A stretch of DNA of 64,000 nt from Neckera pumila. Its lineage: Eukaryota; Streptophyta; Bryopsida; Hypnales; Neckeraceae. Position 1 is the first letter of the stretch. Each line of letters starts with the position of its first letter. This document shows, piece by piece, positions 2,733 to 64,000 of this stretch. The notes beneath the pieces were generated by a model that was not told the origin of the DNA, searched no databases, and saw only the letters and a list, made by a program, of their open reading frames with translations. Where the stretch lies: assembly GCA_963969595.1 (NCBI GenBank), contig OZ018413.1, forward strand, positions 11,832,211-11,896,210, in the 5' to 3' direction. The position numbers were made by a program, and so were the translations under genes.

Positions 2733-3660
2733 TTAACTCCTAAAGTCCCAAGGCATTTTTTTGTCAAAAAAACTCGAAACTGCCAGTTCTGCTACATTCA
2801 TCTAAGAAAAGAGAAAAAATAGTTTTTTTAATAATCTAACCATAAGATCTTGTACTTGACTTATCTCAGATCATGTAGTAAAAATTTCATAAAATTTGAC
2901 CATATAGATTAGAAGATATTAGCATTCAAAGTTGGAAACAATTGATTTTTTGAATACTGACTTGCAATTTCAGATGACTTTGACCCCCATTTGTAAAAGA
3001 AATTTGCATTACAGACTTTTAATTTAATTTTTTTTATGTTGAATAATTGAGTTGAGAATCTTAGAAAAAAATTCCAAAAAAATACACATACTTTTCATTC
3101 TTTAAAAAATTGTTAAGTAGAAGTAGGTCCAAGATTGAAAGAAAAACTAAATCGTCAATAGCTCTAAGATGGGATTAAAACACTATAATCCCAATGGTGA
3201 GATTGTTTTAGCAAGCAAACTTAGACGTGTCCAACAATTTTTTTTGAGAAATTGTGAAAATTATATTCAGAAATGAGTCCTACAAGTTATTTTTTCAAGA
3301 AGATGCTCTAATTGCCCAAAAAATAAGATTGTCCATAACTTTCACATAACAAACCCAAATGGAACGAATCAAAGCTTTCCATATAGATAAAAATACAATC
3401 TATGAGAAAATAGTTTTTAAATTTAAAAAAAAAAAATTGTGTGAGAAGATTCTACCCGCAGCACTGATAAAAAGGACCTTTTGTGCCATAACTTTTGCTC
3501 CCGGGCACCGATTGAAATAAGAGTTATATTCCCATAAAGCTAATGTGTTTTTCTATCTTCACAAAAAGTTTCAAAAAATAATGATGAACATTGAAGCCGT
3601 AGTAGCCTGCCCAAAAATCCATTTTGTCCCTCGAGGGGACAATGGGACTTTAGGGGTTAA
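2733..3660. mobile_element. TTAA-ended inverted-repeat element, copy A (928 bp)
   Basis: Left end TTAACTCCTAAAGTCCCA and right end TGGGACTTTAGGGGTTAA are inverted repeats, 17 of 18 matching. A near-palindrome around TTGTCCCTCGAGGGGACAA sits just inside the right end. The interior is AT-rich with no coding capacity and aligns by eye with copies B and C along its length. It is non-autonomous. TTAA at both outer edges fits a TTAA-target element such as piggyBac, but TSD and TIR cannot be separated without an empty site. Confidence 0.8.
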
Positions 3661-3688
3661 GAATGAAACTTAAAATTCAATTTCTTTA

Positions 3689-4618
3689 TTAACCCCTAAA
3701 GGACCAAGGTGATTCTCCTATCAAAAAGCACTCAAAACTGTCATTTCTATTGCAAAGAGAAAAGAGCTTTAAAACTTGTTTTTTCTTGCATATCCAACCA
3801 TAAGATCTTATACTTGACTAGTATGTAAATATGTGGAAGAAATTTCAGAAACTTTGACCTTGTAGAATGCAAGAGATATGCATTTAAAGTGAAGAAAATA
3901 AGTTTTTTTGCACCTTGCTTGACTAGATTTTCTAGCTTTGAGTCTTTTTAGTTAAAATCTTTTGCACTATGGACTTTGATTTTCTACTTCTTTATGTTAA
4001 GTAGTTGAGTCAAGAATCTCCCAAAAAATTTAGGATAAAAAGCACTTAATTTTCACTCATTGAAAAATTGTTAAATAGAGGTAGATTTAAGATTGAAGAA
4101 AAAACTAAATTGTTAATAACTTTTAGATGGAATTGAATCACAATAATCCCGACAGTGAGATTGTTCTAGCAAGAAAATCTAACTTTGTCTAAGAATTTTT
4201 TTTGAAAAATTCTAAAAATTGCATAGAAAAACAAATTCTACAAGTTATTTTTTCAAGAAGATACTTAGATTGCTTGAGAAACTAAGATTGTCCATAACTT
4301 TCTCATTATTAGTCCAAATTGAATGAAACAAAGCTTCACATGTAAACAAAAATATAATCTTTGAATCAAAAAATTGAAAAAAAATTATTTTGACTTTTTG
4401 TGATTTTTTTGGGGCTGCCCGCCGAACTTCAGTTTTGCTTATTGTGCCATAACTTTTTCTCCCGGACATCAATTAAAATAAAATTTATATATTCACAAAG
4501 CTCTTGCAAAAGTACACAACCTTAAAAAATCCCAAAAAATATTACAAAAAATGGAGACAGTAGACCTGCCTGGACCCGATTTGTCCCCCGAGGGGACAAA
4601 TGGTCCTTTAGGGGTTAA
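3689..4618. mobile_element. TTAA-ended inverted-repeat element, copy B (930 bp)
   Basis: Ends are TTAACCCCTAAAGGACCA and TGGTCCTTTAGGGGTTAA, a perfect 18-bp inverted repeat. Internal palindrome TTTGTCCCC-CGA-GGGGACAAA lies 15 bases from the right edge. It starts 28 bp after copy A in the same orientation. It is clearly more similar to copy C at 57619 than to A. The interior is non-coding. Both A and B lie in GDSL intron 3. Confidence 0.85.
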
Positions 4619-14950: not shown

Positions 14951-16627
14951 CTAATAGGGTTGAACCATTCTAACCCCGCCCACAACAGATTGCAAACAAA
15001 CTGCAACACACATGGTCATGAGCACCACTGATTTGTCCACGACTGTCTTGGTCGCATCTCCAACAGCCTGCAGCTTCTCTCCAAAACCAGACCTTCTTGG
15101 CGCTCCAGAAACCTGCTCCTTCGAAACCTGCTCTAGTCCATTTCCGCTGAAGACAGCTGAAACTTTGGCCAAAGAAACATCAATCGTTGACTGAACAGCT
15201 GAAGAAGTCATAGTCCTTGCAATATCCAGAATCAATTTCCGATTGTTAGGAACGGCGATCACTTTCGAAATATGTTCAATATAGTTCGTCTCAACTGGTT
15301 CTTTCTTCCCGACAATGGTCTTTCCTTTCCATTTGACTGGGGAATGGCTTGGAGATATAGGCTCCTGCTCTCCCATATCATAGAACACTTCCGAGCCTTC
15401 GTGGTCCTGAAACAATTCACCCAAGTCCGGACATGATGAAATAGTTGCCTTCGGCTCCGTCTTTGAGTCACTAGGATCGGACGTTAAGACCTCATGCGAG
15501 GTGCGCACAAAGCTACTGGTAGATGCTTCGCAGATAGTGGTCAGAAGGTCAGTAATGGGCCCTTGGTGTTCCGGCTTCCCTAGACTAGCAGCAAGTTCAT
15601 CAAAAGTATTGATATCCTTGGTCCGATCCAGATATACCGACACAGCAGTTCCGACAAAAGCTTGAATCCAATCCGTCAGAACTGCTCTGCCATCTGTGCT
15701 GCGTGCAAATGCAAATAAGCCTTTGACGAATTGACCTCCGCTTCTCGCCCCTTCGTCTCTATTGGGAGAATTACTGTGCTCTAAAACAGAAATCACGAAA
15801 CTTCGAGACGCAGAGGCCACCATAGCCGACGCAAAGCCCTTCCCAGGTTCAGAAAACAGTTTCTCAGCCAGCCTGTCCACCAAGTCTTCTTTGCCATTCC
15901 GTTCCTCAGACTGCATCCCAGCACCATCCCCGCTGGAGTTCCACTCAACTCCTAACCCTTCTTGCAAAGCTTCCTTCATGCCCCTCGCAATTGACGAATC
16001 AACCTGCTCTTTAACACCATCCAGCATATTTCCAGTACTGGTCCAAGCGTCAACGTCCAATACTCCATCGCATTCCCCGACATCTTCGTCATCATCCGGT
16101 GATAAAGCTCTGTCATCGAGAGTAGTAGAAGCCCCTCCTAGCAAAGCATTAATATCCTTATCACCCCACTTAATTACGTTTTTCATTTCCTCAGAAACCC
16201 CAGAAACTCTCTTTGGAGTCGATATTCTGGACTGCAACCTCCGAGGCTGCTCTTCTTCATATTTAAGGCTCGATGCAATAGACCTGCTACTGATAAAAGT
16301 CGACAAAAGTCCACGACTAACAGCGGCCGCCAGAGCTGAGATGCTCTCCTGAGCCTCAGATGAACGCGCGAGTTTCAAAAGCTGCTTGACGGTTTGCGGT
16401 ACCTCATCTTCTTCCGAGACAAGAAAACCGTGAAGGTCGTTCAAAACCACGGAAAAAGTGTTGCTCCCTCGCGCAAGAACTTCAAGAAGAGTCGCGAAAG
16501 ACTCAAAGAAAAGAAAAACGCGCAATCGTTTCCGGGAATAGTATAGCCGGTAGGTCACATAGCCACCAGCTGCTACCGCCCCGCACGCAAGAAGGATGTT
16601 CCTACTGCGGCGGGAAATTGGAAACAT
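14951..16627 (-). CDS. PP2-A10: PHLOEM PROTEIN 2-LIKE A10-type membrane protein
   Basis: Single uninterrupted 558-residue frame on the minus strand (ATG 16627, TAG 14951-14953), with GC-richer codons than the flanks. Residues 8-30 form a hydrophobic N-terminal segment (NILLACGAVAAGGYVTYRLY) followed by basic residues, so a membrane anchor is likely. A conserved helical block (FATLLEVLARGSNTFSVVLN, DEVPQTVKQLLKLARSS) follows, and then a long acidic variable linker. A second conserved region (DRLAEKLFSEPGKGFASAMV, AVLTDWIQAFVGTAVSVYLD, ITDLLTTICEA) and a C-terminal hydrophobic stretch (VVLMTMCVAVCLQSVVGGV) complete it. This order matches plant proteins annotated PP2-A10, whose biochemical role is unknown; despite the name no lectin fold is visible. 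It has no close gene neighbours and no intron in the coding region. Confidence 0.8.
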   Translation of the reverse strand: MFPISRRSRNILLACGAVAAGGYVTYRLYYSRKRLRVFLFFESFATLLEVLARGSNTFSVVLNDLHGFLVSEEDEVPQTVKQLLKLARSSEAQESISALAAAVSRGLLSTFISSRSIASSLKYEEEQPRRLQSRISTPKRVSGVSEEMKNVIKWGDKDINALLGGASTTLDDRALSPDDDEDVGECDGVLDVDAWTSTGNMLDGVKEQVDSSIARGMKEALQEGLGVEWNSSGDGAGMQSEERNGKEDLVDRLAEKLFSEPGKGFASAMVASASRSFVISVLEHSNSPNRDEGARSGGQFVKGLFAFARSTDGRAVLTDWIQAFVGTAVSVYLDRTKDINTFDELAASLGKPEHQGPITDLLTTICEASTSSFVRTSHEVLTSDPSDSKTEPKATISSCPDLGELFQDHEGSEVFYDMGEQEPISPSHSPVKWKGKTIVGKKEPVETNYIEHISKVIAVPNNRKLILDIARTMTSSAVQSTIDVSLAKVSAVFSGNGLEQVSKEQVSGAPRRSGFGEKLQAVGDATKTVVDKSVVLMTMCVAVCLQSVVGGVRMVQPY

Positions 16628-17340
16628 CGTTCTCTTCGCCAGCTACCCTACAAATTGCTACATGTTACCACTTCACAAGCCTAATTCCATCCACCATCCC
16701 TTCCAAGTAACACTTCTCCCTTCTCCCCTCCTTTCCACACTATCACGAGCAAATTCCACAATTCGCATTCCCAAAGCGGGCCGATCTCGCAATAAACCCT
16801 CTCAATTCTCCTCCCAACACCAACTGCTAGCAATCAAATTTCTTCTTACAAATCCGTGATCCTAAAACAATAAGCCTCTGTCGCTCAATCCGCACGACTC
16901 TCTACTGTAGATAACCTTCGAGACCTGCTTCTTACGTCATACGCAAGAAAAGCCATCGTGCAATTGACGTCAAAAGCTGCTCAGAAAAGAGAAATCCACC
17001 ATAAGACCAGAAAGATCGTCTGAATACAAAACTGCACGTCGATATTGAACCGCGATTTTACACGAATCGAATAGTCCGTCCAAATTCGCAACTCAACCTC
17101 GGTCAAAGGAACGCATTTAACACTCAAACTTCGACTAATTAAGCTTGAATGAAGTGATTCAAATTGGATAAAAGCTCGCGAAAGCAATCCCTAGCGCACC
17201 TTAGAGCGAAAATACTCTTGAATTCGATTTTCTATTTCGCCCCTCCGGAGCAGCCCCGTCGCAGGGGCAGACTGAAACCCTAGAACTCCATAGCCAAACC
17301 ACGTTGCAACGGCACGAAGCATCACACCGTCAGATAAGGA
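16628..17340 (-). promoter_or_regulatory. 5' flank of the PP2-A10-like gene
   Basis: Moderately GC-rich DNA without repeats lies between the ATG and the first transposable elements, ending near the GC-rich patch 17240-17300. It presumably holds the 5' UTR and promoter. I could not assign a TATA box or start site. Confidence 0.45.
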
Positions 17341-34388: not shown

Positions 34389-34929
34389 TTAACCCCTAAG
34401 CGCTCAAGTGACCATTTTATGGTTGCTGCCTAACTTCGGGCAAAATTTTCGGGCAAAAAAAAAAAAAAAAAGTTTTTTTTTTTTTTTTAGCAAAAGATTG
34501 GGTTGTCTATTAATATTTATACTCAAAACTCAAATCACTACGATCAAACAAAACTATAAGAGAAATAGCACAAAGTGTCTAGATTTGCCTAATGTTGAAA
34601 AATTTACTATTTGGGGAAAGTATTGGTGTTTTCATTACTAGATCTCATACATTTTTTCATAAATCAATAAAAACCACAATTTTGACCAATCAAAAAACAA
34701 TTCAAATGCTAAAAATAAAAATTGTATTTTTGGTAAATTTTTGAAGTTATATATTCAAAATTCATTTAAAAAAAATCTAAGAATAATTTTACAACTTTGA
34801 CCATACGGATACTTTCTACTTTCATGCTTCACATTATCTTCTTTGATGTAAACTTTAAAAGAGTTTTAGAACTTATATTTTATAATACATTTGTATTTTG
34901 TCCAAACCCCTTGGGCTTTTAGGGATTAA
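34389..34929. mobile_element. TTAA-ended element, 541 bp
   Basis: Left end TTAACCCCTAAGCGCTCAAG pairs with the right end CTTGGGCTTTTAGGGATTAA at 16 of 20 positions. An A17-G-T16 run (34455-34488) forms a perfect AT hairpin just inside the left end. No coding sequence is seen. It shares the TTAA-CCC(C)TAA end type with the 930-bp family but has a different interior. Confidence 0.65.
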
Positions 34930-36553: not shown

Positions 36554-38561
36554 GACCATCTGCAATGCAACAACGGCAAAAAGGCCCTGTAACAATACAT
36601 CGCAGGCCATTCCACGAGGCCTCTAAAGTACCAATTCTTTCTTTGGAAAATTTGACCCAATGCAAAGTCGGCATCCAAACGTCAAATGGAATTTATGGTA
36701 TTATAAAAAGAAAGGAAGAAAAGAATCTACATTAAAGAAAAGACTTTTCATGGAAACAAGGAAGGTTGAATTGATTAGTGCACATACCAATAAACTTTTC
36801 TTGGCATCCATTGAAAATTTTACCACAATAACTAGACCTTAAGGGGTACAAAACCCAACACATTTTATTGAAAATGAGCATTTTTGGACAAAGATACAAG
36901 CCCCCAAAGTTGCATTTATCACAACGCAGCATGTTGAACAAAAATTGACCCTGTAAACTTCGAATGGCTCTAGAAAACTCAATTCATCTTGGATTGATCT
37001 GAAAATTTTACCATAAAAATTAGATTGGTATGCGCAATTTTTTTGACAATTTTTATTGAATTCGAACATTGGATGCAACAGTTATAGTGCTTCAAAGTTT
37101 GTGTGTGGACACTTTTTGTCCTCTTGGGCGGTGAGGGGTTAAGAATGGCCCCTATAAATGGTTGTGAAATGGACATGAGCTGGTTCTGAAATTGACCAAT
37201 ATAGTCATTGATTGAATCAAGGAAAAAAATATTACTAATTGCAAGAGCCAATCATTCTCTTTGCTGTCCCCATTTTTATTTAGAATTGCAAGTGAACCGT
37301 TTATAAAAGACCTAGGCTCACAAATAGGGACCTACGACCCAGCTCGTTTGAAAATTCATTAGTAATTAAAAAATGCTTGAAAAAATACAAAACCAGTTGG
37401 ATTAGATTCCTCATCAATTTCTCTTTGTCTAAAAAATGAGCTAATAATATTCCCGTCCAAGGAAATACATGAAAAAGGCGGACCAGCCCTTAGATGCTCC
37501 ATTTCTGAGCCTCGTACCTTACTGTAGAAGACCTCCCCTTTTCGCAACAAAGTTTTGAGGTTGAATAGTTGCACTTGTGTCCCACTAGAAGGATTCTATA
37601 TCATCCATTTGACACAAATTGTCTATAGCATTGTTTATGGATTAAAGTCAACCGATTTTTTTTAATTTTTTTCTTTTTGGGTGGGATTTATGTCTTGATG
37701 GCTCTCAACTCCCTCCCCTATCTGCTGCAGTTATTTATAGTATCTGTTATTTACAGTTATATACAATGTCTGTTTTCAATAAAAAAATTTAGAAAAATTG
37801 CACATAATATAGTAGAACTTCTCTTAGTGCATACTCTCTCTTAGTGCATAATATGCAGTAAGAGAGATTGTACTTTGAAGCATTTATTTGTGAACAATAG
37901 TTGGAGGTCCCATAGTAAGCGGCCATGTTAGCCAAAGTTTGGTATAGAACCTCTTCAATTGCATAAACCATATGCACTAGTCCAAGAAGTTCTAAGTGAC
38001 TAAGAAGTACTTTAGTAGAAGGAGGTTCAACCTCATATGAGTTTTTGGCAATTTTTCTTGCTATTTTTTGAAATTTCAAGGCCATTTTGCAGACCTTATC
38101 AAAGTTAGGTCTTTACTAGGAGCAAAATCACATATGATGGTGACCCATATCATTTGTTCAATAGTCTAAACGCACACACATGGGATGGCAATTTCTCACC
38201 ATACAAAATCACTTCCATTTCTACATCCGTTGTGGATTGTTTTGGATACTTCTATAGGGGCGGAGTTACTGATGCCTGAACTGTTTTCAAGCCTCCTCCT
38301 ATATATGACAGTTTCAATGATCTAGGGAGCTTCCACTTTGAAAATTCATAGAAATTACATGCCATGTCCGAATTTTTATTTTATTTTTTAAATTCATGAT
38401 TTTCAATTGCTAATACTACAAAAGTATTATTTTTAGGAAAAGGTGCCTCTAATTATGCTGAATTGTTTATTTTGACAATTTTAGGCATTTCCGCCTTGTT
38501 GGTCCAATAATTGGAGCATGTTGATGACTACCTTGATAATTGGGGTCGTGTCCTTTGAGGG
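36554..38561. other. Intergenic with repeat debris
   Basis: Nothing resembling a gene. It contains a truncated copy of the short TTAA element ending at 37645, and repeat ends near 37815. The minus frames 36732-37251 overlap and carry no motifs. Confidence 0.5.
37518..37645 (+). mobile_element. 5'-truncated copy of the short TTAA element
   Basis: TACTGTAGAAGACCTCCCC through ATTGTTTATGGATTAA aligns with the right two thirds of 38562-38769, including the TTAA right edge (37642-37645). The left TIR is missing. Confidence 0.65.
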
Positions 38562-41023: not shown

Positions 41024-44000
41024 ATGGCGAAGGTTCTCTTGCACGGGACTTTGCATGTGACGATCTTCGAGGGTCGCGGCATGGCGACCCCATCAGAAAA
41101 GAAACACCACCCAGTTGGACGGTTCTTCAGATCGGTGAGCATTGCAATGACTGTTAGGGTACTTTCCTTCCTTGTTAGTTGGGAATGTCTCGAGTTCTTT
41201 GGAAATCTTCCAACTGACATTACCGATGTTTCCAGTTGTTGGATACCGCCCAAGACGCCATCATGGGCGACAGCGAGTACTACGCCACCGTCGATTTAGA
41301 AAAATCCCGCGTGGGTCGCACTCGCATTCTCAAGGAACAAAAAGGGGAACCCATCTGGAACGAGTCCTTTCGCATTTACTGCTGCCACACGGTCGCCGAG
41401 CTCACGGTCTCCGTCAAGGACGCATCAGTGCCCGGTACGGTGGTCGTCGGTCGAGCGAAGCTTCCCGCCGAAGCCCTACTTGCAGGAGAGGCCGTGGAGA
41501 ATTGGTACCAGCTCTACCGCGGGAAAGACGCGGTCGACGGGGAGATCCATTTCAAGCTCCAATTCTATGAGGCTTCTCATGATCCTCACTGGGGAGAAGG
41601 GGTTGCCGATCCTCGATACAAGGGCGTCCCGTATTGCTACTACCCGCAGCGGAAAGGATGCAAGGTGACGCTCTACCAGGATGCGCACATGGAGGACGGG
41701 TTCTTGCCGCAGATTTTCCAAGCGGGTGGGCAGCTGAGGGAACCCACGCACTGCTGGGAAGATGTCTTCAACGCCATCAACAACGCGCGCCATTTGGTGT
41801 ACATCACAGGTCCGTGAATCAAAACACATTGAAATGATTCACAAGTGTTCTGATTTCCTATAGATTGATTGAAGAAATCGGTCAGCATAAGCTGAAGAAT
41901 AAGAAACCCTACCCGAATTCCCCCCCCTACAGCAACGTTTGTAGCAATGTTTGAGCGTTGTTGATTACACTAAAATATGGTCCCAAAGGTGACGTTCAAC
42001 GCTGCTAAAGTGAACTACGTTTTGGAATCTGTTGGCTGAAAAACGTGGCATGTTCCCTGAAGCATATTGGAAAGTTTGCATGTTTGCTCAAGCATGATTG
42101 TTCCAAACTGTTGAGTGTAGCTCGAAACATTGCTGAAACACGTTGCTCAACGTACTGTCCAAATTCTTGATAGTGAAATGTACTAAATTCCTACAAATTG
42201 ATCGATGAAATCGAGCATCAAAACCTGAAGAATAACAAATGCTGGAAGACGTGCATGTTTGCTAAAGTATGTTGCGAAATTGCCATGTTTGCTGAAAGAG
42301 ATTGCTCAAGCATGTGCCTAAACGTTGAGTGTTGCTCGAAACGTTGCTAAAAAATCTTCCTGAACTCTCCAAAATCTAGTAGTGGTATATTAAATGTAAA
42401 TTTACTAAAGTCCTACAAGTTGATTGAAGAAACCGGCCACCAAAACCTATAGATTTGCCCAAATTTTCCCATTTTTACAAATCGTTGTCACAGGTTGGTC
42501 CGTGTACTGCGAGATTCTCCTCGTGCGCGACCCGAATCGACCTGTTCCCGAGTCGCAGGGCGTGACACTTGGTGAGCTTCTGAAGAAGAAAGCCGCGGAG
42601 GGCGTGCGCGTGAACCTCTTAGTCTGGGACGACAGAACCTCCGTCGAGGTCTTCCACAAAGACGGTTTGATGGCCACTCACGACGAGGACACTGAGGCTT
42701 ACTTTGAGGGCAGTCAAGTGAACTGTCACCTCTGTCCTCGTAATCCTGACGACAGCTTGAGTGTAGTCCAGGGCCTTGCGATCGGCAACATGTTCACGCA
42801 TCACCAGAAGACGATCATTGTGGATGCGCCTCTTCCAGGGACCGACACGGGCAGGCGGAGGATCATGAGCTTCGTGGGCGGGATTGATCTCTGTGATGGT
42901 CGGTATGATAATCAGAACCATTCGTTGTTCCGGACGTTGAATGATCTCAATATGAATGACTTCCACCAGCCGAATTACCCTGGAACCTCCACGGCAAAGG
43001 GAGGGCCGAGGGAGCCGTGGCATGATATTCACTCGCGGGTGGAAGGACCTGTCGCGTGGGATGTGCTGTGGAATTTTGAGCAAAGGTGGCAGAAGCAGGC
43101 GAAAGCGGAGCTACTGATTCCGATTAAGGATATCGATACAATTGATCCGCCGTCGGCGGTGGCGGAAGAAGACGATCCGGATACGTGGACTGTGCAGCTG
43201 TTCAGGTCCATTGATGCAGGTAAAGAATTTTGCCATATCAGTCAATGTCGGTCTGTGCACGTCCTTTGTAAACACTTTTGCTTCTATGAGAGGTAAGACG
43301 GAATCCTTTCCGTGGGACTGTGTTTTGTCCCCGTTTTGGAAGGATTCAAATGCACGATAACGTGGGGTATTTGGATATTGTATGAATGATTCTAGAAGCT
43401 TGAAGTAGCAGGCTCCCTGGAATCACGAGCCTAGACTACGTTTGAACCATAAGGATTCCATCTCTGAGGTTTCCATGGAAGACTCTTTGATGGACTGTGA
43501 TAGAATCCAGAAGTCACCTCTGCGTATGAAATTGCATTGTAAATCCAGTTCTACGTGTGCCCTTCCTATGTTTGCTTAGACTGCACAATGTCTCCTGTTA
43601 CCTGTTATGTGGACATTTCCAATTTTGAAACATATCGGAAGTAGAAAACTGAAGGAAGGCACTATTCTAAACCTTGGTAGACATTCCTCCTTTCCATGAA
43701 AGCATCTTTGCCTGTGATAGAATCTAGAAGTATCTCACTTCTTGCAAGTCACTTCTGTGGATGGCACTTGCATTGTAAACCAGTTCTACTTTACTTCCTA
43801 CTTTGCATAGGCTCCATAACGTGAACTGCTCTCCATTTTTTGGGTGGCCGTCACAAAATGGGACAAAAGTGGAGAACTAGAAATTGGGACACACTTAGAA
43901 GTGGTCGCGTCCATTGTATCTGGAGGAAATCTTCAGCCACGGGACTGGAAAATTACAAACCATACATTCAAGATTCTTTAGTTCAAAATTTTGCTTGCAA

Positions 44001-45815
44001 GACTTGACATTCATTTCTCCTTCTTTGATGTCACAGGTGCGGCCTTCGGTTTCCCCGACGACCCCGAAACCGTCGCCCGCGCCGGTTTGACCTGCGGCAA
44101 AGACAACACGATCGACCGCAGCATCCAGGACGCATACATCAACGCCATCCGCCGCGCCAAGAACTTCCTTTACATCGAGAATCAGTACTTCTTGGGAAGC
44201 TGCTTCGCCTGGAAACAGGACCAAGATGCCGGAGCTCTCCATCTCATCCCCATGGAGATCACGCGCAAGATTTGCAGCAAGATTGAGGACGGCGAGCGGT
44301 TCACTGTCTATGTGGTGGCGCCCATGTGGCCGGAGGGCATCCCGGAGAGCGGGTCCGTGCAGGCCATTCTGGACTGGCAGCACAACACCATGGAGATGAT
44401 GTACACGGAGATTGCGACGGCGATAAGGGCGGCCGGGGTGGAAGCGCATCCTAGGGACTATCTCACGTTTTTCTGTTTGGCGAATCGGGAGACGCATGAG
44501 GAAGGGGAGTATCAGCCAACGGAGAAGCCGGATGAAGGGAGCAATTATGAGGCAGCGCAACAGCATCGGCGATTCATGATTTACGTACACTCCAAGATGC
44601 TCATTGGTAAGCAACCGGGAAGCTCTCTCTTCTTCACGGTTTTACTTTTCAAGCTCAATACTGTGAAAACTCTGCGTCTGTAGTTACAAATTTCTTTATT
44701 GAAATACTAAGGAAGAAAAGCGAAACCTTATGTAACAACTACGACATTTTAGCAAAACCATGTTTAAGAACTGCAACTGGGGGGTAGGAACCTCTTCTGC
44801 TAGAAATTCCTCGTCCATTTTGTGCTTGTCCATGGGCTGGACAAGCCTCGAGTTTTCTCTATTTAACCTCCACAAGTCACCTTACATTCTCCCGAAGTAT
44901 GGCCATTAACATACTGGTCTACTTGTTAACTACTCTTGTTCCCTCGTACATGAGCATTGTCTCCACAGTATTCTCAAGTGTCCCAACTGTATGCCTGTGG
45001 GAATATAGCGTTAGCTCGTCCCTCCTAGCACAAATATTCCCATTTCTTGATATCCAAACCCCTCACGTTCTGTGGACCCAGTGTATTTCCTCTGAATTTC
45101 CGATTGAAGTAGAAGCATAGGGATGTCCATTTACTTCATCTAAAGAAAATCACTTCCACAGGCGAATTCAACCCAAAATCGTCACCTAAACTTTGGTTCT
45201 AATTGATGGAACCCTAAGATTTTTTCGTCCCTATTTCGGCAGTGCGAATTTTCACTCTTCTCAATGCAGGAACGCTTGAAATGTTGTTTTCTCCCCCCTG
45301 ATGAAGCTCAAGAAATGCTTTTTTTTGCTTTGCAAACTTCTGCGAGCTAACACACGCATGATTTCGCTCTGTGCTTGCTTGCAGCGGATGACGAGTACAT
45401 CATCATCGGCTCCGCCAACATCAACCAGCGTTCTTTAGACGGCGCCCGCGACTCCGAGATTGCCATCGGTGCATACCAACCTTTCCACCTGTGCGCCCAG
45501 CGTCCCCCGCGCTCTCACATCCACGGCTTCCGAATGAGCCTGTGGTACGAGCACATCGGCAGGCTGGACAACGCCTTCCTGCAACCTTGGACGGAGGACT
45601 GCATCCACGAGGTCAATGCCGCAGGGGATCGGCACTGGGCCATGTGGGCTGGGGAGGAAGTGGTGGACATGCCGGGGCATCTGCTTAGCTATCCTGTGCA
45701 AATTGATCAGGATGGGACGGTGTCCAACCTTCCGGGGTTCGAGCATTTCCCGGACACGCAGGCCAAGATTTTGGGGACGAAGTCGGATTCTTTGCCTCCC
45801 ATCCTCACCACTTGA
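41024..45815 (+). CDS. PLDalpha: Phospholipase D, alpha class, 5 exons, 803 aa
   Basis: Hydrolyses phosphatidylcholine and related lipids to phosphatidic acid, with Ca2+-dependent membrane association. Exons: 41024-41134, 41236-41809, 42494-43219, 44037-44606, 45385-45815. Phases join exactly. Residues 1 to about 155 form the C2 domain ([19 protein letters not shown]). The first HKD motif is [10 protein letters not shown] (His332, Lys334, Asp339), and the second is [20 protein letters not shown] (His655, Lys657, Asp662). The PLD-specific FLYIENQYF is at residues 514-522. There is no PX/PH domain, so it is the plant C2-type, and its length is close to the usual alpha-PLD size of about 810. The ATG in ACCATGG context gives the conserved start. 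Codons are strongly GC-biased at position 3 (for example exon 4), unlike the AT-rich introns. The catalytic apparatus is intact. Confidence 0.96.
41840..42450. repeat. Degenerate tandem repeat in PLD intron 2
   Basis: The block TTGATTGAAGAAATCGG plus CAAAACCTGAAGAATAA appears three times (near 41863, 42199 and 42420). Between copies the motif GTTGCT(G/C)AAAC recurs many times. The last copy runs almost to the exon 3 acceptor. Confidence 0.65.
43488..43825. repeat. Duplicated block in PLD intron 3
   Basis: TGTGATAGAATC(C/T)AGAAGT...GCATTGTAAA(T)CCAGTTCTAC occurs at 43497-43553 and again at 43716-43788, followed in both by a Tcctactttgc-like string. Diverged tandem duplication, period about 220 bp. 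Confidence 0.65.
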
Positions 45816-48421: not shown

Positions 48422-49069
48422 TTAATCCCTAAACTAAATGCCCAAGGCCTGTTTTGGGCTTCCTGGAATTTGCTCTAAATTGAACAAAATGCCAACATTT
48501 GATAAGTTGTATCAATTTTTTTTGAATTGTAACCATACAAATTCAAACTGGACATGTTAGAGATCTCATAGGAAAATAAAATACAACAATATCACTTATG
48601 GAGTGAAAGATTATAATATTTGACCATGAGGGTGCTAAAACTGCAAAAATCTTTCATTCTTCTTTACACAAGTCAAATCTAAAAAGCTGGTGATCAAAAA
48701 AATATAAGGCTAAAGGGCCTAACTTGTATAACCACAGTCAATTTTTGGTTTTGTAAAATCTACTATACAATTTTTTTAAATGAATTTTGAATTTGGTTTT
48801 TTTTCCAAGATCTAGTGTATTTGAGGCTCATTTCCAAGAGCTCTCAACACTACGGGAAGTCAAGATTGCAATGGGTACCCTTGTACAAAAACTTGAATAG
48901 AAAAATCAATATCATTTATTTTCAAGATCGGATTTTGGTGCTAAAATTAGACTTCAAGAAGAACTTTCTAAAAATATAGACTACTAAAAATAGCAATTTG
49001 ATCAGGTTTTATTTAACTTCAAAGTTTTGCAAACACCAAATTTGGGTGCCTTGGGCATTTAGGGGTTAA
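48422..49069. mobile_element. TTAA-ended element, 648 bp
   Basis: Left end TTAATCCCTAAACTAAATGC and right end GCATTTAGGGGTTAA invert onto one another after allowing a 4- to 5-base insertion, extending through CCCAAGGC / GCCTTGGG. The interior is AT-rich and non-coding. End type is as in the 930-bp and 541-bp elements. It lies 311 bp before the NLE start codon. Confidence 0.7.
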
Positions 49070-49380: not shown

Positions 49381-52300
49381 ATGGGGACAACGAATCCGCT
49401 TGCAATACCTGCAAATAACATTATCTGCTCGCTCGCCGACCCGGAGGGTCGTAGTTTGGGAGCTCCGCTTGACCTTCCGCAGGATGCAGGTCCCAAGGAG
49501 CTTTACCTCCTCATCAACAACCTTCTTCAAAATGTAAGTTTTTTCAAATCCTCGAGTTCTCGTTGTTGCGAATTGCTCCATAGTTTATGAATTGTGCGCG
49601 ATCTTGCAAGGAGCACTGTGAATGGGGAATGAAGGGTTAGGGTTTGTAACGCTGCTCATGCGCTTTCTCGGAACACTGCTCTTGGAAATGTAAGCTCCTC
49701 AAGTCTTCTAGCTCTCCTTGCGAATTGCTCTATAGTTTATGAATTGTGCGCAATCTCGCGAGGAGCATTTTGAATGGAAATGAGGTATTAGGGTTGTGAC
49801 ACTGGTAATGCGCTTCCTCTGAACAGCGTTCTTCAAAATGTAATCTCTTGAATGTCCTCTGGCTCTCCTAGCGAATTGCTTCATACTTGATGAATTGTGC
49901 GCGATCTTAGAAGAAGCGCTGTGAATGGGGATGAGGGTTTAGGGTTTCTCACACTGCTCATGCGCTTTCTCTGAACACCCTTCTTCGAAGTGTAAGATTT
50001 TTTAGTCCTCTTGCTCTGCTTACGAATTGCTCCATACTTCATAAGTTGTGCGCAATGCTGCAAGGAGTGCTGTGAATGGGAATGAGTGTTTAGGTTTGTA
50101 AAACTGCTCATGCGCTTTTTCTGAACAGTCTTCTTCAGAATGTCAATTCTTGAAGTCTTCTCGCTCTGCTTGCGAATTGCTGTATACTTGATGAACCACA
50201 AGGAGTATTTGTGAGTGGGATTGAGAGTTTAGGGTTTGTCACACTGCTCATGTGCGTTCTCTGAACACCGTTCTTGGAAAATGTAAGCTCTCCAAGTCCT
50301 CTCGCTCTGCTTACGAATCACTACTTCATGATCGCGCGATCTTTTCTTTGTTGACAAGGGGCACCGTGAATGGAAATGAGGGTTTAGGGTTTGTCTCACT
50401 GCTCATGTGCTCTCTCTGCTGTTTTCAGGAAGAGAAGCTGCCTTACGCGTTTTACATCTATGATAAAGAACTCGTTGGAAGCCTGGGTGCCCATCTGCTG
50501 CAAAATAAAGGTGGCTTCCAAATGCTTCGCTGCCGTCTAGCAATTGTGATTTTGATTTTTTTCAGGAGGGATTCATCTGCGTTTCTAATTATTTAGGGTT
50601 AGCACTTAGGCGTCTGTGTTTAGATCGACTGTCGTGAATTTAGGCTACAATTCCTTAATGCAGAATTCCAAGAGGCATAAACCTTGCACAAGGTTTCTAA
50701 GAGAATGCAGAGGGCTATACTCTAACCCTACGCAAGATTTTCAAGAGGATACAGAGGTCTAACATTTCATGGTTGTTGCAGTGTCCGTGGAGCAGGTGCT
50801 AAAAATTGTGTACCAACCACAGGCTGTTTTTCGTATTAAACCTGTAACGCGTTGTTCTGCTAGCATCCCTGGTGAGTGTCTACATCACAGAAGGATTGGA
50901 TTTAGGGTTCAGGGTTTAAGGGCACTCTAACTCCTGTTTTAATGTGTTTTTGCTGCAGGTCACTCGGAAGCAGTGTTGTCTGTGCAATTTAGTCCAGATA
51001 GTCGTATGCTAGCCAGTGGGTCAGGCGACACTACCGTGCGATTTTGGGATATTTATACACAAACGCCACTCTTCACTTGCAACGGTAAGGTTTGGACTCT
51101 GCATAATTATATTTACTAGGAGTACGTGTTGCTAGAGCTGTCTCTTAACTCTCTTTTTCCTCAATCAATGCTGTAATTTTACTTTTGCGGCCCTGACTTC
51201 CTGTTGAATTTTCATGAGGCAAGGTAGAGTATGCTATTTACGTCACCCTATGCATTTCAGCACGGTAGAAGTTTGATTTTTGGGAGGTCACTATATAGCT
51301 TTGGAGACATCACTTGGGTAAATGAGCAAAATCTGTTGATATCAACTTTTTATCACAATGTATGAGTTTCTTATGCAATTTTTATTTGGGAAGTTGTAAA
51401 CCGCTATAAGTGACAGTAAACAACTCCATTTCAAAGATCAGCGTCCATAGACGTTTAGCTAATTCATGCTTACACCACTCCTAATAAGTCCAACCAAGTG
51501 TATGAATGGATGAGTTGCTGTTGGCAACAAGGTCAAGTATAGAAACGGGAGCAGGCCCCTAAAAGTTTTAGTATCCATGCATTATGTGATTGAGATCAGC
51601 TGTGGTGGTGGAACAGGACATAAGAACTGGGTGCTATGCATAGCATGGTCACCAGATGGCAAGATGCTTGTAAGTGGAAGCAAAGATGGTGAACTGAGGT
51701 TGTGGGAGCCTACAACAGGCAAGGCTATTGGCAATCCCTTGACAGTATGTTTCTCCTTCTTCATTGACCCGTAGTGAGGAGTTTGGAAAGGTACTTGTGT
51801 TAAGGATAGGCCTCAGACATGATTTATTATCCTTTCAGGAACAAGTGATGCCTACTTTGAGTTGTGGGCCAGATGTGTGCACTTTCTGTGCCGAGTACAG
51901 AAGCAGTCTTCATGTGCTGGAGGAATTCTTATTTTTTCCTCATTTGAGAAGCTATGTGTGATTCAGGGGCACAAAAAATGGATAACAGCAGTTGCATGGG
52001 AACCAGCCCATCTGCAGTCTCCGAGTCGACGATTTGCCAGTGCTAGTAAAGATGGTGATATTCATATATGGGACACCACCCTGCACAAAACAATTATGTG
52101 CCTTACTGGTCACACGCTTGCTGTAACGTGTGTCAAGTGGAGCGGCGAAGGTTTCATTTATTCTAGGTGCGTCTCTGAATGGATCTCATACTGGAAAGCT
52201 CTTTCACTTCGTCCGCTGCCTAGATCTGAGTGAATTAAAGTTAAAGATACTTTATGACGTTTGATATGCAGTTCTCAAGATTGTACTATAAAGGTTTGGG

Positions 52301-55813: not shown

Positions 55814-57617
55814 TAGTGGTTGGCGCTTGCTATGCTACGCATTCATCATTAGAATTTTATTAGAATTTTATGTATTAGATAAAATGCAGAACAAAAATTT
55901 CAATAAATCTTCAAATAAAAATTACTAAAATCTTTGTATAAATTTGTTTATAAGTAAGCATATATTGAAATGTACAATAGAAATTTATTGAATGATGAAT
56001 GAAATATATGCAATGGTGAATACTATAAAAGATACACATTTATTGTAATGCATTCAAAAGTTGACTCAATTGTTACGAACAATGGTAACCCAAAAACTTC
56101 ATGAATTGAAAAGAAAAACTTGTAAATTTCAAAAACTTCATGAACAACTTAATTGTTGTGAAGTCCAAAACTGCTTCAATAGAATAAATTTCTCAAATCA
56201 TTTGGTAGTAGCAATAGAATTTTGAAATTATAAAAGCTATAAAAATGATATTACAGAGGTGATTGCAAACTACTACTCTATTTCTGTAATATAAGATTGT
56301 GTGAAAATATTATTTTTATGTATGCATGATTGAAAATGTTTTTATAGAATATTAAAATTAATTATTTCAAAGACTTATTGAAATCAATATCATGCATTCT
56401 ATTCAAATATATCAGAATTTTACTAATATTTGATACAATGAATGCGTAGCAGAGCAAGCATGAGCCCCTATTATTAATGGTAGCATTTGTGATATTACAA
56501 AGGGAGTTATGATTTTAATAGTATGATGAAAATGAAATAGTTGTCTTGACTCGTTAAGGTGACAAATGACTTGGCAACATATTTAAAAGTTTGATGCAAT
56601 ATGACATGTTCAACTTCAAGTACATTGTTTTCAAGGTTTGAAATTATAAAAAGGTATTAAATTTGAAATGTTTTGTTTTCATATAAGGCTTGGAATTGTA
56701 GAGTCAAGAAGGTGGTATAGAATCCATTTAACACTTATTAAACTATTTGTTATCACATTTATATGCAATTTATTGTAACATAACAATGTGGTAGTGAAAG
56801 AAAGTACAATGTGACTTTCAGATTGTAAACTAGGATTCAAACAAGGTACTCAGATTTTTCAAAAGAGATATCAAAAAAATGATAGGGAATCTTGGAATTA
56901 CATTTGGGATGAATGCATATTTTTGGATGAATATATAAAAACTATCAACCTATTTTGGCATGTTTCATTCATTCGTATGGATGCATAGTACATAGATTCA
57001 TCACTCTATTGAAGGTCATTGTTTATAGTGCAAAAATAAATGAAATAAAAATGTTGCCAAGTGTATCTAATTCTTGAGGTTATTGGCCTTCTTATTCAAT
57101 AATGAGTTCACGTTGTGGAATAGTTGTTAGTTAAACTTGGTAAAATAAGGCCATTGTGATAGGGCAATTTTATCAAATTCTTGAATGAATTGCTTCATTT
57201 TTTTGGCAATACTTCAAAAAATCATTCATCAAATATTTTTTGTCCTTGAACAACATTTTAGAATTAACCTTTAGATATATGTGGAGATCCATACATATGG
57301 TACCATGTTTGATTCCTACAATACAAATCATATAAATACAGTCATACTACTAAAATCACAATGACCTTTGTAATATCACATTTTTACATAGTGTGGTCTC
57401 ATAGAGGTACATTAGCCATTGGTGATATTATAGAATATCAATAGAATGATATTACGAAGGTCGCAATATGGTGAGTGACCTTTGTAATATCACATTTTTA
57501 CATACTGTAATATTACAAAGGTACATTAGGCGTTGGTGACATTAGAGAATATCAATAGAGTGGTATTACAGAGGTCGCAATCTGGTGAATGCATAGCATA
57601 GCAAGCGCCAACTGCTA
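55814..57617. mobile_element. Inverted-repeat element, about 1.8 kb, or composite
   Basis: GTTGGCGCTTGCTATGCTAC (from about 55819) and its complement GCATAGCATAGCAAGCGCCA (57591-57610) anchor terminal inverted repeats of about 32 bp, running inward to GCATTCA / TGAATGC. A third, inward-type end (GAATGCGTAGCAGAGCAAGC, 56441-56460) could make the left 658 bp an element by itself. No coding sequence; the interior is very AT-rich and contains GGATGAA-type repeat. It directly abuts TTAA copy C at 57619. Target duplication not evident. Confidence 0.65.
57356..57590. repeat. Two-copy tandem repeat, unit about 117 bp
   Basis: ATCACAATGACCTTTGTAAT...GATATTACGAAGGTCGCAAT is followed by GTGAGTGACCTTTGTAATAT...GTATTACAGAGGTCGCAATC. 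ACCTTTGTAATATCAC inside each unit pairs with the unit end, so each copy can fold. Confidence 0.75.
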
Positions 57618-57618
57618 A

Positions 57619-58550
57619 TTAACCTCTAAAGGACCAAGGTGATTTTCCTATCAAAAACCACTCAAAACTGTCATTTCTATTGCAAAGAGAAAAGAGTTTT
57701 AAAAGTTGTTTTTTCTTGCATAACCAACCGTAAGATCTTATACTTGACTAGTATGTGAATATGTGGGAGAAATTTCAGAAACTTTGACCATGTAGATTGC
57801 AAGATATATGCATTTAAAGTGAAGAAAACAAGTTTTTTTGCACCTTGCTTGACTAGATTTTTTGGCTTTGAGTCTTTTTAGTTCAAATTTTTTGCACTAT
57901 AGACTTTGATTTTCTACTTCTTTATGTTAAGTAGTTGAGTCAAGAATCTCCCAAAAAATTTAGGATAAAAAGCACTTAATTTTCACTCATTAAAAAATTG
58001 TTAAATAGAGGTGATTTCAAGATTGAAGAAAAAACTAAATTGTTAATAGCTTTTAGATCGAATTGAATCACAATAATCCCAATGGTGAAATTGTTCTAGC
58101 AAGAAAATCTAACCTTGTCTAACAATTTTATTTGAAAAATTCTAAAAATTGCATTGAAAAACAAATTGTACAAGTTATTTTTTCAAGAAGATGCTTAGAT
58201 TGCCCGAAAAACTAAGATTGTCGATAACTTTCTCATTACTAGTCCAAGTTGAATGAAACAAAGCTTCATGTGTAGACAAGAATATAATCTTTGAGAAAAA
58301 AAATTGAAAAAGAATTATTTTGACTTTTTGTGGCTTTTTTTGGGCTGCCCGACGAACTCCAATTTTGCTTATTGTGCCATAACTTTTTCTCACGGGCATC
58401 AATTAAAATAAAAATTATATATTCACAAAGCTCTTGCAAAAATACATAACCTCAAAAAATCCCAAAAAACATTATGAAAAATTGAGACAGTAGGAACCTG
58501 CTCAGACCCAATTTGTCCCTTGAGGGGACAAATGGTCTTTTTGGGGTTAA
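57619..58550. mobile_element. TTAA-ended inverted-repeat element, copy C (932 bp)
   Basis: Ends are TTAACCTCTAAAGGACCA and TGGTCTTTTTGGGGTTAA. It is colinear with copy B (3689-4618) along its length in the same orientation, for example AACTGTCATTTCTATTGCAA, GATTGAAGAAAAAACTAAAT and GGGCTGCCCG, with roughly one difference per 15-20 bases. The subterminal palindrome is retained as TTTGTCCCTTGAGGGGACAA. Confidence 0.85.
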
Positions 58551-59121: not shown

Positions 59122-62100
59122 ATGGCTGCCGGGAGCCATGAGTCGGAGCGTGGATCTTTTCTTCAATCTCCTCTCGATCAGGTGATTCTTTGCTTTTCTT
59201 TTTCCTTTCCTTTCGCGATCAATTTGCTTACTCTGATTTTCAGTGGGAAAACAACGAGTTAACGGTTTTCCCACGATTTGGAGTGCTGGAGTGGAGTGGG
59301 TCGTCAGGGTTTACTGCTAAATTTGTGTGCAAGAGCAGAACGTTGTAAATAATATTTGCAGCTGGATTGCGTACTCTGATTTTCAGTGCGAAAAATGAGT
59401 TAACTGTTTTTACGGTTTGGATTGCTGGACTGTTGATTAGGGGTACTGGTCGCATTCGCTTTCGAGATTTATGAAACGAGAGTAGAATGGTGAAACAAAG
59501 AATTGTAGAGGAATTGGGTATTTTGAATTTCTTTGTGAGAATGGTTTTTTGGGAGTTTTTTGGTTTAGGGTTTGGATAGTGAGAATGCTGGAGTGTTTTG
59601 TTAGGCTTGAGGTTAAATGCTCGCCTTCACTCCCAGATTCATGAGCAAGAGCAGAAGCTGGTTGAGTTGCGACGCAGCAAGGGCCCGTTCGATCGAGCCG
59701 TGCGAGCTCTCACGACTAACATTCGGGAAAGCTATGAGAGCATGATTTTGGAGAATGTGTCGAGCTCGGAGTCGATAGAGCAGCAATTGTGGCAGCTTCA
59801 CTACAGTTTTATCCAGGAGTTTCGGGCGCGGTTGGGGAAACTGAAAGCGGCTGCTGTGGCTGCTGCCAATGTTCCTAACAAGAAGAAAGCCGTTGAAAAG
59901 CAGAAATTCGAACGTGTCGGAGGTCAGTACAAGTGTTTTCTTGATGAAGCGACGGGTTTCTACCATGGGCTCATTGCCAAGCTCGGGGCTAAGCATGGAC
60001 TCGCTGGAAAGTTCTCTTCTCCCGGCAACAGAACTGGTATTTTATTGCAGCCCTTGACCTCATCCTCCAGGTTTAAAGTTATTAGCAAATTTGAAATTTG
60101 TGTGAAATGAATGGAAACTTCCTACAAACTATCAACGCTTGATTCTGGAGGAGGGGAATGTAGAGCTGGAGTATTTTTTGACTTTCAGAATAAATTATGC
60201 CGTTGAAGAATCTAGTCATAAGATTCTACGGCAATTCATAACAATATAGAATAAAACTCATTTTTCAAGTTCCCATCCCTATAACCCTACCTGACCTATT
60301 CTGAACCTTGCACGAAATTCTTGAAGCACCGTGTGACCTAGTTCATCACATCGCTGACGAGTAGACAAAATTTTCTTTTTTCAGCGTTCGTGTTGCCCCC
60401 GCAGTAAGCTGTTGAAAATAGTTATCATTCACTCAGTGGATGCCGACTCTCTCGGGTTAAACCTTCCACAAATATATGATCCGAGAGTCATAGGTATATT
60501 GTAAATGATGCTGCATTTAGGAGTGCATGTCCAAAACCTCATTAAAATAAAATTGCTTCCCCGTCATAGCACATCCACTGTGCATCGTTATCCTCTCTTG
60601 CTGATCATACAAGACAGTTCCTTGCAATTCTACAGTTGGTAATGTGGAGAGATTTCACTAGACAGCAGCCAACTCTGTTATATTGTAAACGATATTTTTT
60701 TGTATCATTCCGCGCGGTTGGTGTGCGGTTGGTGTGCGGAGACTTGGAAGCGTACTATCCATGACATGTCTATGTCTCTGCAACTAGCTGTCTTTTGTAT
60801 TCTCCTGCTGAACTCCTTCGAGGGTGAGGGCTTTGATTTTTCGTGTGTTATTTTACTAAGGCTGTTGTTTGGAAATGGAGTGGCAGAGATTAGCAGCAGC
60901 AGCAACAAACGGTTCAGAAGGTGCCAGTGTGTCTGTCACAGGTGCTACATCTATTTGGGAGATTTGTCTCGCTATAAAGAGCTTCACCTGGTTGTTGAAG
61001 GAAGAACACCCGACTGGCATGTAGCAGCGAATTATTACCGACAAGCTTCTGCTCTGTGGCCTGCTGGTGGCAATCCTCATAACCAGGTTCTTGTATCAAC
61101 CCAGGTGGTCTTTATGTCATCTGAAAACATGAATTTCTCAGTGGAAACATAAGCATTTCGTTTCGTGATCTAGTGCAATTCCTCAGATCCACATTGATCG
61201 AAGCTTCCTAGTACGTCTGCGAATTTCTTGTCCAGATTTTCCTTATCAAAGCTGATGTGGGATACCATATTGGTGTTGCAGCTGGGTGTGCTGGCCACCT
61301 ATGCGGGGGACCACTTGCAGGCTTTGTATCATTATCTGTATAGTTTAGCTGTGCATGTTCCCTTTTCTACTGCCCGTGCAAATGCTAAGCTTCTGTTTGA
61401 AAAGGTACTTACACGTTACGCTACCTTGAGAACACACTTCTTTAATTTGTAAGTGCCGAAGTGGTGGCGTATTGATATATTATTGGGGTGTTGAAATAAA
61501 TCATCTGGGATGCCTCAAGAACGTTAACAAATGTACGTATAGAAGCATACACAAGAGGAAAGCATACACCACATTTTTGAACGATAGCAATATGTTTTGA
61601 GAGTAACTATAATCAACAATTAGTAGACTGGGTACTGCAGGGTTTTCATATCTCAGTTCAACAATGAACGACTACTTGTTCCTTCAAAATATGGTGCGGA
61701 GCTTTGTGCGTAGTCCAAGCACGATTTTGACGCAATTTCATGAGTTGCGGGTTTCCTTGTTTGGAATTTTTTTCTTTTCAAATGTCCAATCTGATTCGTG
61801 TATTATAACTCGCAGAATCAACGCCACAATACACAGCTGTCGAATTCACCTGATGACGATGTGGCTATTGATATTGAAATGGCGCAAGCGTTTGAGAGCC
61901 ACAAGTCCAGCACAGAGTCTCATCCAGAGTGCCCTCTTGCTCGATTGCAAAGACGATTTCGTGTGCATTTCATCACGCTCATTGGACTTCTTTTCAACAA
62001 ATCCGGGTTTGACTCTTTTTCTGCCACTGCTGTTTAGCTTCCGAAATTGGTTGATTATGTGATCAAATGATGCCTATTAAATATGGCAGGGCTGCCTTGA

Positions 62101-64000
62101 TTCCTGGCCAACCATAAGCACGACTGACCCTTCTATCGTCCTCTTGGGCAGGTTGGAAGATTTCTCGGAGCTTTCTACGCTCGTGCTTCGAGAAGCTCAA
62201 CTTCTGCTCTCCCAAGAGAACGCGCTGATTACTTTTTCTTTCACCCTCGAGAAATCTAATCGTTTCAAGAATCAAGCGTTCAGCGTCATGCAACTCGTCG
62301 TGCTATTGATCTTTTCCGTTCACAATGTCGGGCCTAAGAAAGACAAGAGCAGTCGCAGTTCTCAGCGGCTGGAAATGTCACCCGTCGTCATGCAAGCCAC
62401 TATATTTGCATTTCGATTCATGACTGGCATGTTGCAGGATTGCACGAGAACGGAAGAGCCATGTTGCAGCCCCTTGTTTCCTGCAGTAGTGGTCTTCTGC
62501 AATTGGCTGTCCTGCTACCCGGACTTTTGCCAACAAATTCAGGGTGATGAGGAATGTGAGAAACTGCAATGCAGTTTCGTGAAGGAAGCGTGCATGCTCT
62601 TATCAAAGTGCGTGCAACAAATTGGCATGGCGAAACCCCACGGCAGTGACTCTATAGCTTATTCTGAAAAGGAAGGTCATCATGGAACTGAAACCGTTTT
62701 ATGGGAAGACAAAGAACTGGGTGGTATAGTCCCTTTGAAGCATCTAGAAACTTCGGAGACTGCTTTGAAATTATCGGTGTTGGCCAAGGGAGCCCACAAT
62801 GTGCCTGAGTCTGCGTGTGTTGTGCGTGCGGAGCGCCTTATGAAGGCCTTGACGTTCCTTTGTTCTGTGCTCAAGTTGGATTCTTCAGAACTTGACGCTA
62901 TTACTGCGCTCAGCAAGTCTGCATTTGGTTGGACCTCTATGAGAGCTAGTCCTTCTGAACGGATCAGATGCTCCCAATCCTCTGGAGGTTCGGTTAGGAC
63001 TGCAGATGGATCAATGCAGTTGAAAACTCAAGGCCCGTGTATTGTCCAGCGGAGTATTGAGAACACTCTATCAAGTCCTTTCAGAAAGGATGACTGCCTA
63101 TTTCCGCAGGCCAGGGACCGGAACTCTGGTTCTGCTGATCCAGCCAAACTTGCAAGCCTCTTCTGTGGTAAGCTACGCCAGCTTCAAAACGGAATTCTGC
63201 TCCCGGGTTTTCCAATTTCTTCTGCATTCTTTGATTAGACTCTGAGGTTTCGCTGTATTTAATAGTTCTTTAGTATTTGCTTCAGAGGCCTGAAAATATG
63301 TATTTTTATAGCAACCATTCTGCTCTTGAAGTTCCTCACGAAGCTTGTGAGCATTAGACCTCTGAGCACGTATCTTCCTTGAATCAGTACTGTAGAAGGT
63401 GAAAAGTCCTACACATTTTCGTAAGTCCAATCTTCGTAATGATATTCCAGGATGATCTGTAGACCACGACCGCTGACATTCTTGTTAATGTTACTGCAGA
63501 AGCCTCTCATCAGCACAAAGTTATCTCTGAAAGAGAGCTCAACGTTTCCCGCTTCTCAGAAGGAAGCGCCTTACAACAACCAGAAAGTGAACCTTGTGAC
63601 AACAACGTAGAAAGCATCTTAGAGGATCCCGTGCGCAACAATGTAGAGCCTAAAGATGATGGCACCTTGTGTTCCGTTGGTCGGGGAGCGCTGTCACTTG
63701 GAGACTGGGTGAAAGCTCCTCCTGGTGGCGATGGAAATGCTGATGCAACCCCAGCTTTAGAGAAGCGAACGAAGTCTCTACCGGGGGCTTCACAACAAGC
63801 TCAGACTCACTCATCAGGTGAAGAATCATTAAATCCAAGTTTGAGCTTCAAGGCAGTCTGCGGAACACCGACACCTCTTCTTGTTCCCTTGAGCAGAAAT
63901 GCCGAAGTAAATGATCCAAGAGAGAATGAGCAGCATATCGATTTGTCCGCGGTCCGTAAAGAGACCGACTCCCATGCATCCTTATCATTAAATCGCCCAG
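59122..64000 (+). CDS. SMG7: SMG7/EST1-type NMD factor, 3' end outside window
   Basis: SMG7 binds phosphorylated UPF1 through an N-terminal 14-3-3-like TPR domain and acts in nonsense-mediated decay; in plants it also acts in meiotic exit. Exons: 59122-59181, 59637-60036, 60887-61086, 61282-61404, 61816-62006, 62152-63167, 63500 to the edge (frame open at 64000). About 830 residues visible. The domain shows EQQLWQLHYSFIQEFRARL, FLDEATGFYHGLI, CHRCYIYLGDLSRYKELH, ANYYRQASALWPAGGNPHNQ, LYHYLYSLAVHVPFSTARAN and RFRVHFITLIGLLFNKSGLE, all in SMG7 order, then the EST1 C-terminal part (VVLLIFSVHN, LWEDKELGGIVPL). Exon 7 is a Ser/Glu-rich tail with SLGDWVKAPPGGDG, typical of the disordered half. The exon 3 acceptor is less certain (60887 by phase; 60889 is an alternative). 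Exon 2 uses TCCCAG|ATT because the upstream TTAG would break phase. Confidence 0.9.

Follow-up and report, generated by a model that had tools for sequence, protein, structure and literature searches.

MITE-like elements in the genome of the moss Neckera pumila are very probably non-autonomous members of the piggyBac superfamily

Natural copies of piggyBac are known mainly from animals, fungi and protists, and the element has become a standard tool in animal genetics. Cut-and-paste DNA transposons named Lanisha have been described from a moss, presumably Ceratodon. These carry an EnSpm-like transposase and have mostly CA..TG termini (Maumus et al. 2020, cited in an excerpt of PMC12730594). Many piggyBac elements of bees start with CAC instead of CCC (excerpt of PMC10140906). 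As for plants, a review includes PiggyBac among the MITE superfamilies of angiosperms (excerpt of PMC10004981), two papers on animals state in general terms that piggyBac occurs in plants (excerpts of PMC10813416 and PMC10140906), and a table of fern repeats has a PiggyBac row of 1,230 entries amounting to 122 kb, or 0.00% (excerpt of PMC6890710). The insect element has been used as a tool in rice and, according to an excerpt of PMC5505980, was yet to be tested in Physcomitrella. A search confined to openly licensed papers, and hence weak evidence of absence, found no bryophyte piggyBac; in the same literature nothing was found on the end sequence of the family described here or on TTAA MITEs in angiosperms, and a match in PMC10619864 was, in the excerpt available, to 'expression piggybacking'. 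The original prediction had held that no well-described piggyBac-type MITE family was known from land plants. This has to be qualified by the mentions in the available parts of PMC10004981, PMC10813416, PMC10140906 and PMC6890710.

The stretch of N. pumila DNA analysed here, referred to as the window, is 64,000 nucleotides long and carries on its forward strand three AT-rich (30% GC) elements: copy A (2733..3660, 928 bp), copy B (3689..4618, 930 bp) and copy C (57619..58550, 932 bp). Copies A and B are separated by a 28-bp spacer (3661..3688) that belongs to neither. Copy A has A-type ends, TTAAC[C/T]CCTAAAGTCCCA, with TTAA at both edges, its first bases being TTAACTCCTAAAG and its last CTTTAGGGGTTAA; both ends of copy B are perfect B-type ends, TTAACCCCTAAAGGACCA; copy C, of the B-type subfamily, begins with TTAACCTCTAAAG and finishes with CTTTTTGGGGTTAA. 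Direct reading thus bore out the three predicted elements of 928-932 bp, with their ends and their stops at TTAA. Aligned end to end, B and C are 92% identical over 933 positions, A and B 70% over 960, and A and C 71% over 957. The longest stop-to-stop frame is 61 aa in A and 75 aa in B, so that neither holds a long frame, as in C (61-75 aa). A subterminal palindrome adjoins the right TIR of each copy, reading TTGTCCC...GGGACAA in A (3624..3642) and ATTTGTCCC...GGGACAAAT in B (4579..4601) and lying at 58511..58533 in C; in copy A this side corresponds to the 5' end of the autonomous element described below.

Other features of the window were noted in passing. Just left of copy C, at 57400-57600, degenerate direct repeats ATATCAATAGA...GGTCGCAAT... 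can be made out by eye. A PP2-like A10 gene at 14951-16642(-) (14954-16627 in the protein comparison) has 20 relatives, the organism-named ones being from Ceratodon purpureus (72%), Physcomitrium patens (62%) and Sphagnum (42-44%), as befits a moss host, and an unnamed one reaching 92%. Further ordinary plant genes encode a protein with a C2 domain at 41218-45815(+) (phospholipase D by eye), a WD40 protein at 51823-52233(+) and EST1 at 59583-63238(+) (SMG7-like by eye).

The end motif TTAACCCCTAAAG, allowing at most 2 mismatches, occurs 18 times in the window, whereas 100 shuffles gave 2.18 occurrences on average and 8 at most; six of the 18 matches are the ends of A, B and C. Throughout the 339.5-Mb genome, at most 1 mismatch being allowed, the B-type end TTAACCCCTAAAGGACCA gave 23,177 matches (11,530 + 11,647) and the A-type end TTAACCCCTAAAGTCCCA 8,832, the two counts overlapping because sequences one step from both patterns are counted twice; reversed-pattern controls of both end types gave 0 matches genome-wide. 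The core CCCCTAAAGGACCA, which excludes the TTAA, has 11,486 exact matches in the genome. If two ends are taken as one copy of about 0.6-0.9 kb, the family would make up, as an order of magnitude, some 3-5% of the genome. In four MITE groups with at least 5 copies, the median pairwise K2P distance ranges from 0.09 to 0.21 and the smallest single distance is 0.026, a pattern that suggests several bursts.

Palindrome arms of at least 8 bp were present in 9 of 45 elements and in 0 of 90 shuffled ends, with the reservation that one of the nine, copy A, is counted for an AT-rich arm at the opposite end (the perfect arm of its palindrome being 7 bp) and that two of the 45, at window positions 34389 and 48422, are probably chance end pairs. 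The latter, at 34389-34929 and 48422-49069, came from a loose search and have no similarity to A or B. The palindrome was rejected as a feature of the whole group: A/B/C-like copies and the autonomous elements on contigs C9 and C5 have it at one end, and it is absent from a TTTCA-ended subfamily. One 747-bp family copy elsewhere (L023/L024, C1:879076-879822) is itself a near-complete palindrome, 91% identical to its own reverse complement.

A genome search with PF13843, the piggyBac transposase profile, returned 116 scored matches, which lie on contigs C1-C11 and reach an E value of 4.6e-80; by a hand count of the table, some 30% of them lack an internal stop. The 14 control genomes gave no match. 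The original prediction had proposed looking for such a transposase flanked by the same TIR, and it was found in near-identical copies that end at TTAA. The bounded autonomous elements are 5.4-5.6 kb long. Those on C9 and C8 are 98.9% identical over 5,645 aligned positions (5.63 kb) and those on C5 and C3 98.8% identical over 5,372, which points to recent movement; in both pairs similarity halts at the TTAA edge instead of extending past it, and the flanks differ.

The sequence of the C9 element runs TTAACCCCTAAAGTCCCATTGTCCC...GGGACTTTAGGGGTTAA. It shares with the right end of copy A both the terminal 18 bases, TTAACCCCTAAAGTCCCA, and the subterminal palindrome; in both bounded elements, C9 and C5, the palindrome occurs at the 5' end only. 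Copy A runs in reverse of C9, its bases 1-313 resembling the C9 3' end (73%) and its bases 832-928 (97 bases) the 5' end (77%), and copy B matches in the same order through bases 1-202 (67%) and 784-930 (69%). In copy C, bases 1-202 resemble the 3' end at 70%, and on the other side only 784-828 match. Since A and B match both ends of C9, each appears to consist of the terminal parts of such an element with a non-coding stretch between them. C, being 92% identical to B, goes with it; all three can accordingly be read as non-autonomous, MITE-like piggyBac derivatives. With only 73-77% identity to the ends of A, the C9 element is a relative of copy A and not its direct source.

A second lineage is represented by the C5 element, which starts with TTAACCCCTTGGGGACT... 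and has the terminus CCCCTTG in both C5 and C3. It directly adjoins another MITE copy at the TTAA of that copy, which is what insertion into a TTAA left by an earlier element would produce, and MITE-like sequence also lies upstream of the C9 element. In this second lineage, at L045/L053-L054 (C5:7,607,389-7,612,759), a single stop separates the 570-aa transposase frame from a 428-aa frame that lies upstream in the same phase. An unnamed protein of 931 aa (P0141) aligns with the 570-aa frame at 73% over its whole length; the native protein of this lineage may therefore be longer. The partner transposase of B and C has been traced in part. For a third transposase (L042/L088), a B-type 3' end with homology to A, B and C9 lies 1.9 kb downstream of the profile match; no B-type 5' end was found for it, the B-type ends next to a transposase being 3' ends only. 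Around two other transposases (L047 and L048) no ends were found within the stretches examined, and a candidate long autonomous element, L017, was rejected, as the end in question is part of a short element close to a thiolase gene (named by eye).

These linked elements bear on the alternative that the MITEs derive from another TTAA-duplicating superfamily and that the piggyBac loci are unrelated neighbours. Sola3 and Kolobok also duplicate TTAA, and the duplication alone cannot tell these superfamilies apart. An origin from either is nevertheless highly unlikely, because the PF13843 gene is bounded, exactly at TTAA, by ends that have the identical 18 bp, the palindrome and on each side some 100-300 bases of homologous sequence, and because the ends start with CCC, as in many animal piggyBac elements (excerpt of PMC10813416).

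The target itself was assessed from the element edges. TTAA was counted in two samples of ends: in a first set of loci, anchored on the inner core only and biased in that the TTAA pattern had been used to pick many of them, TTAA was present at 63 of 69 ends, and among the window and loci picked without the TTAA pattern it was present at 29 of 31. The bases directly outside are not conserved. In the first set the outermost T is kept in 68 of 69 ends and the inner A in 66 of 69; the former being as conserved as the latter, the target is taken to be the whole TTAA.

Empty sites were sought by comparing the joined flanks of 56 end-paired elements with 348 kb of sequence including the window, which gave junction-spanning matches for 10. 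At four of the 10 sites, uninterrupted paralogs have exactly one TTAA at the junction: in 19 of 37 spanning matches at L080, 23 of 31 at L077, 2 of 2 at L006 and 2 of 2 at L060, the last at an identity of only 73-75%. At the other six (L014, L015, L021, L027, L031 and L058) none of the spanning matches has an exact TTAA; the letters there are TTCAA, TTTGAA, TCAA, CAAA, TTGG or similar, mostly one or two changes from TTAA, with TTCAA in 29 of 36 matches at L027. An uninterrupted paralog of the L027 target near window position 37,370 has TTAA and after it one extra A compared with the joined flanks. It lies in a copy of a high-copy repeat (37140..37510) that forms an empty site, with TTAA where the L027 family copy sits. 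The sites without TTAA would represent insertions into diverged host copies that had mutated to TTAA. A genome search with that repeat (loci L057-L086) started from 1,702 first-look candidates and scored 40 matches, 89-94% identical over some 140-148 bases. For copy C, a pattern search with the joined flanks returned two genomic places with three mismatches each, one having a single TTAA (AAGCGCCAACTGCTAGTTAAATTATAAAAT) and the other TTAT; a genome search listed further places of matching length for C and found no empty sites for A and B. The empty-site check, which the original prediction had also proposed, thus comes out in favour of a TTAA target, with a single TTAA at four of 10 sites and at one of the two places matching the copy C target, the remaining six sites differing.

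A single TTAA at an empty site reads the same for a 2-, 3- or 4-base stagger, which leaves room for MITEs of the Tourist or Stowaway kind that duplicate TAA or TA and whose targets are TTAA by chance. Such a family is hardly credible here: the counts of 68 and 66 out of 69 show that the outer T is not a free outer base, on which ground a Harbinger/Stowaway-type duplication was rejected, and the linked transposase is of the piggyBac type.

The transposase ORF of the C9 element (L039) is intact and encodes 638 aa, with a PF13843 E value of 2.1e-81. It matches T. ni piggyBac (PDB 6X67) over residues 150-618 with E 8.4e-36 and piggyBat (9C0F) with E 5.6e-24. The four residues of 6X67 that we take to be the catalytic aspartates of T. 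ni piggyBac (Asp268, 346 and 447, with 450) all align to Asp in the moss ORF (TIDEMM, TMDNFF, GVDVADQ). Its tail is rich in Cys and His, CVVC...C..H...C...C, without a Pfam match to PF13842. Protein searches returned 152 relatives of the 638-aa ORF, 120 of them listed, and 52 relatives of the second-lineage transposase. Heading the matches listed are unnamed proteins from metagenomes, read archives or ENA; identities are 45-68% for the first 20 of the 638-aa ORF and 73% for the first of the second lineage, also unnamed. Listed relatives that bear an organism name come from animals and, for the second lineage, from one fungus, and are 27-37% identical; none of the transposase matches listed (120 of 152 for the 638-aa ORF) bears a plant name. 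A quick, midpoint-rooted tree of 93 rows (five own sequences and 88 of the 120 listed relatives, 420-800 aa long) grouped the five moss transposases with 45 unnamed metagenome, read-archive or ENA proteins in a clade of 50 rows (SH-aLRT 100), with the three organism-named animal rows outside. Within this well supported clade they occupy three separate places, as expected for long residence.

The identity of the organism-named relatives would also suit assembly contamination or a dead recent import unconnected with the MITEs, a reading that can be discounted almost entirely given the spread of the 116 matches over contigs C1-C11, the abutment of the C5 element and a MITE copy at a common TTAA, the MITE-like sequence upstream of the C9 element and the long residence that the three places in one clade fit.

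Copies A, B and C are hence very likely non-autonomous, MITE-like members of the piggyBac superfamily in a moss genome, shortened forms that lost the gene and were multiplied in trans; the bounded autonomous elements of 5.4-5.6 kb encode a DDD transposase. The superfamily assignment, itself an inference in the original prediction, is supported by the linked PF13843 gene, the shared ends and the TTAA edges. The autonomous elements combine a PF13843 transposase and aligned aspartates with a TTAA target and CCC-starting repeats, CCCCTAAAG being present in C9 and C8 as well as in the MITEs; A and B in turn are short and non-coding, with ends that occur in thousands and with both ends homologous to C9. 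By analogy with piggyBac elements already characterised, the transposase would bind the CCCCTAAAG terminal repeats and pair the ends, perhaps also binding the asymmetric subterminal palindrome, and would excise the element and insert it into a TTAA, which then flanks it on both sides. Copies A, B and C would have kept the two outer ends and, with the gene lost, have been multiplied in trans. The anatomy, with its TTAA edges, CCC ends and one-sided palindrome, fits the piggyBac mechanism; biochemical activity, seamless excision, a role for the palindrome and the pairing of transposase lineages with MITE subfamilies are inferred.

Elements of this kind are already known, and a recently mobile piggyBac system on such a scale in a moss appears to be undescribed. 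Whether land plants, or at least mosses, host an old and diverse piggyBac clade of their own, resident and still moving in this genome, where each of several transposase lineages drives one MITE burst after another and the bursts together amount to several per cent of it, is in our judgement evenly poised. If so, piggyBac would be a regular and overlooked member of the bryophyte mobilome. An endogenous and apparently recently active moss system widens the range of natural hosts of a transposase that is well understood, and offers native ends and transposase for moss genetics. The dense set of TTAA insertions would allow tests of how, in haploid-dominant plants, MITEs come to outgrow their autonomous parents, and the elements provide one concrete family for checking TTAA-only assignments of plant MITEs.

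Among described systems, T. ni piggyBac (6X67/6X68) shares with the moss elements a DDD transposase, the TTAA target, CCC-starting ends and a subterminal repeat structure that is asymmetric between the ends. The moss elements differ in their host, in their length of 5.4-5.6 kb against 2.5 kb (excerpt of PMC10140906), in an 18-bp terminal repeat, TTAA included, and in a subterminal palindrome at one end in place of 19-bp subterminal inverted repeats. Animal piggyBac-like elements and their MITEs (e.g. piggyBat, 9C0F) likewise have a TTAA duplication, often CCC termini, and non-autonomous derivatives, whereas the organism-named animal rows fall outside the moss transposase clade in the quick, midpoint-rooted tree. 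Lanisha elements are also cut-and-paste DNA transposons in a moss, but are not piggyBac, and were rejected as the identity of the present family on account of their EnSpm-like transposase (excerpt of PMC12730594). The PiggyBac MITEs of angiosperms resemble the moss copies as TTAA-type MITEs assigned to piggyBac in plants; they appear as a category name only in the available part of PMC10004981, whereas the moss MITEs have linked autonomous elements with an intact transposase.
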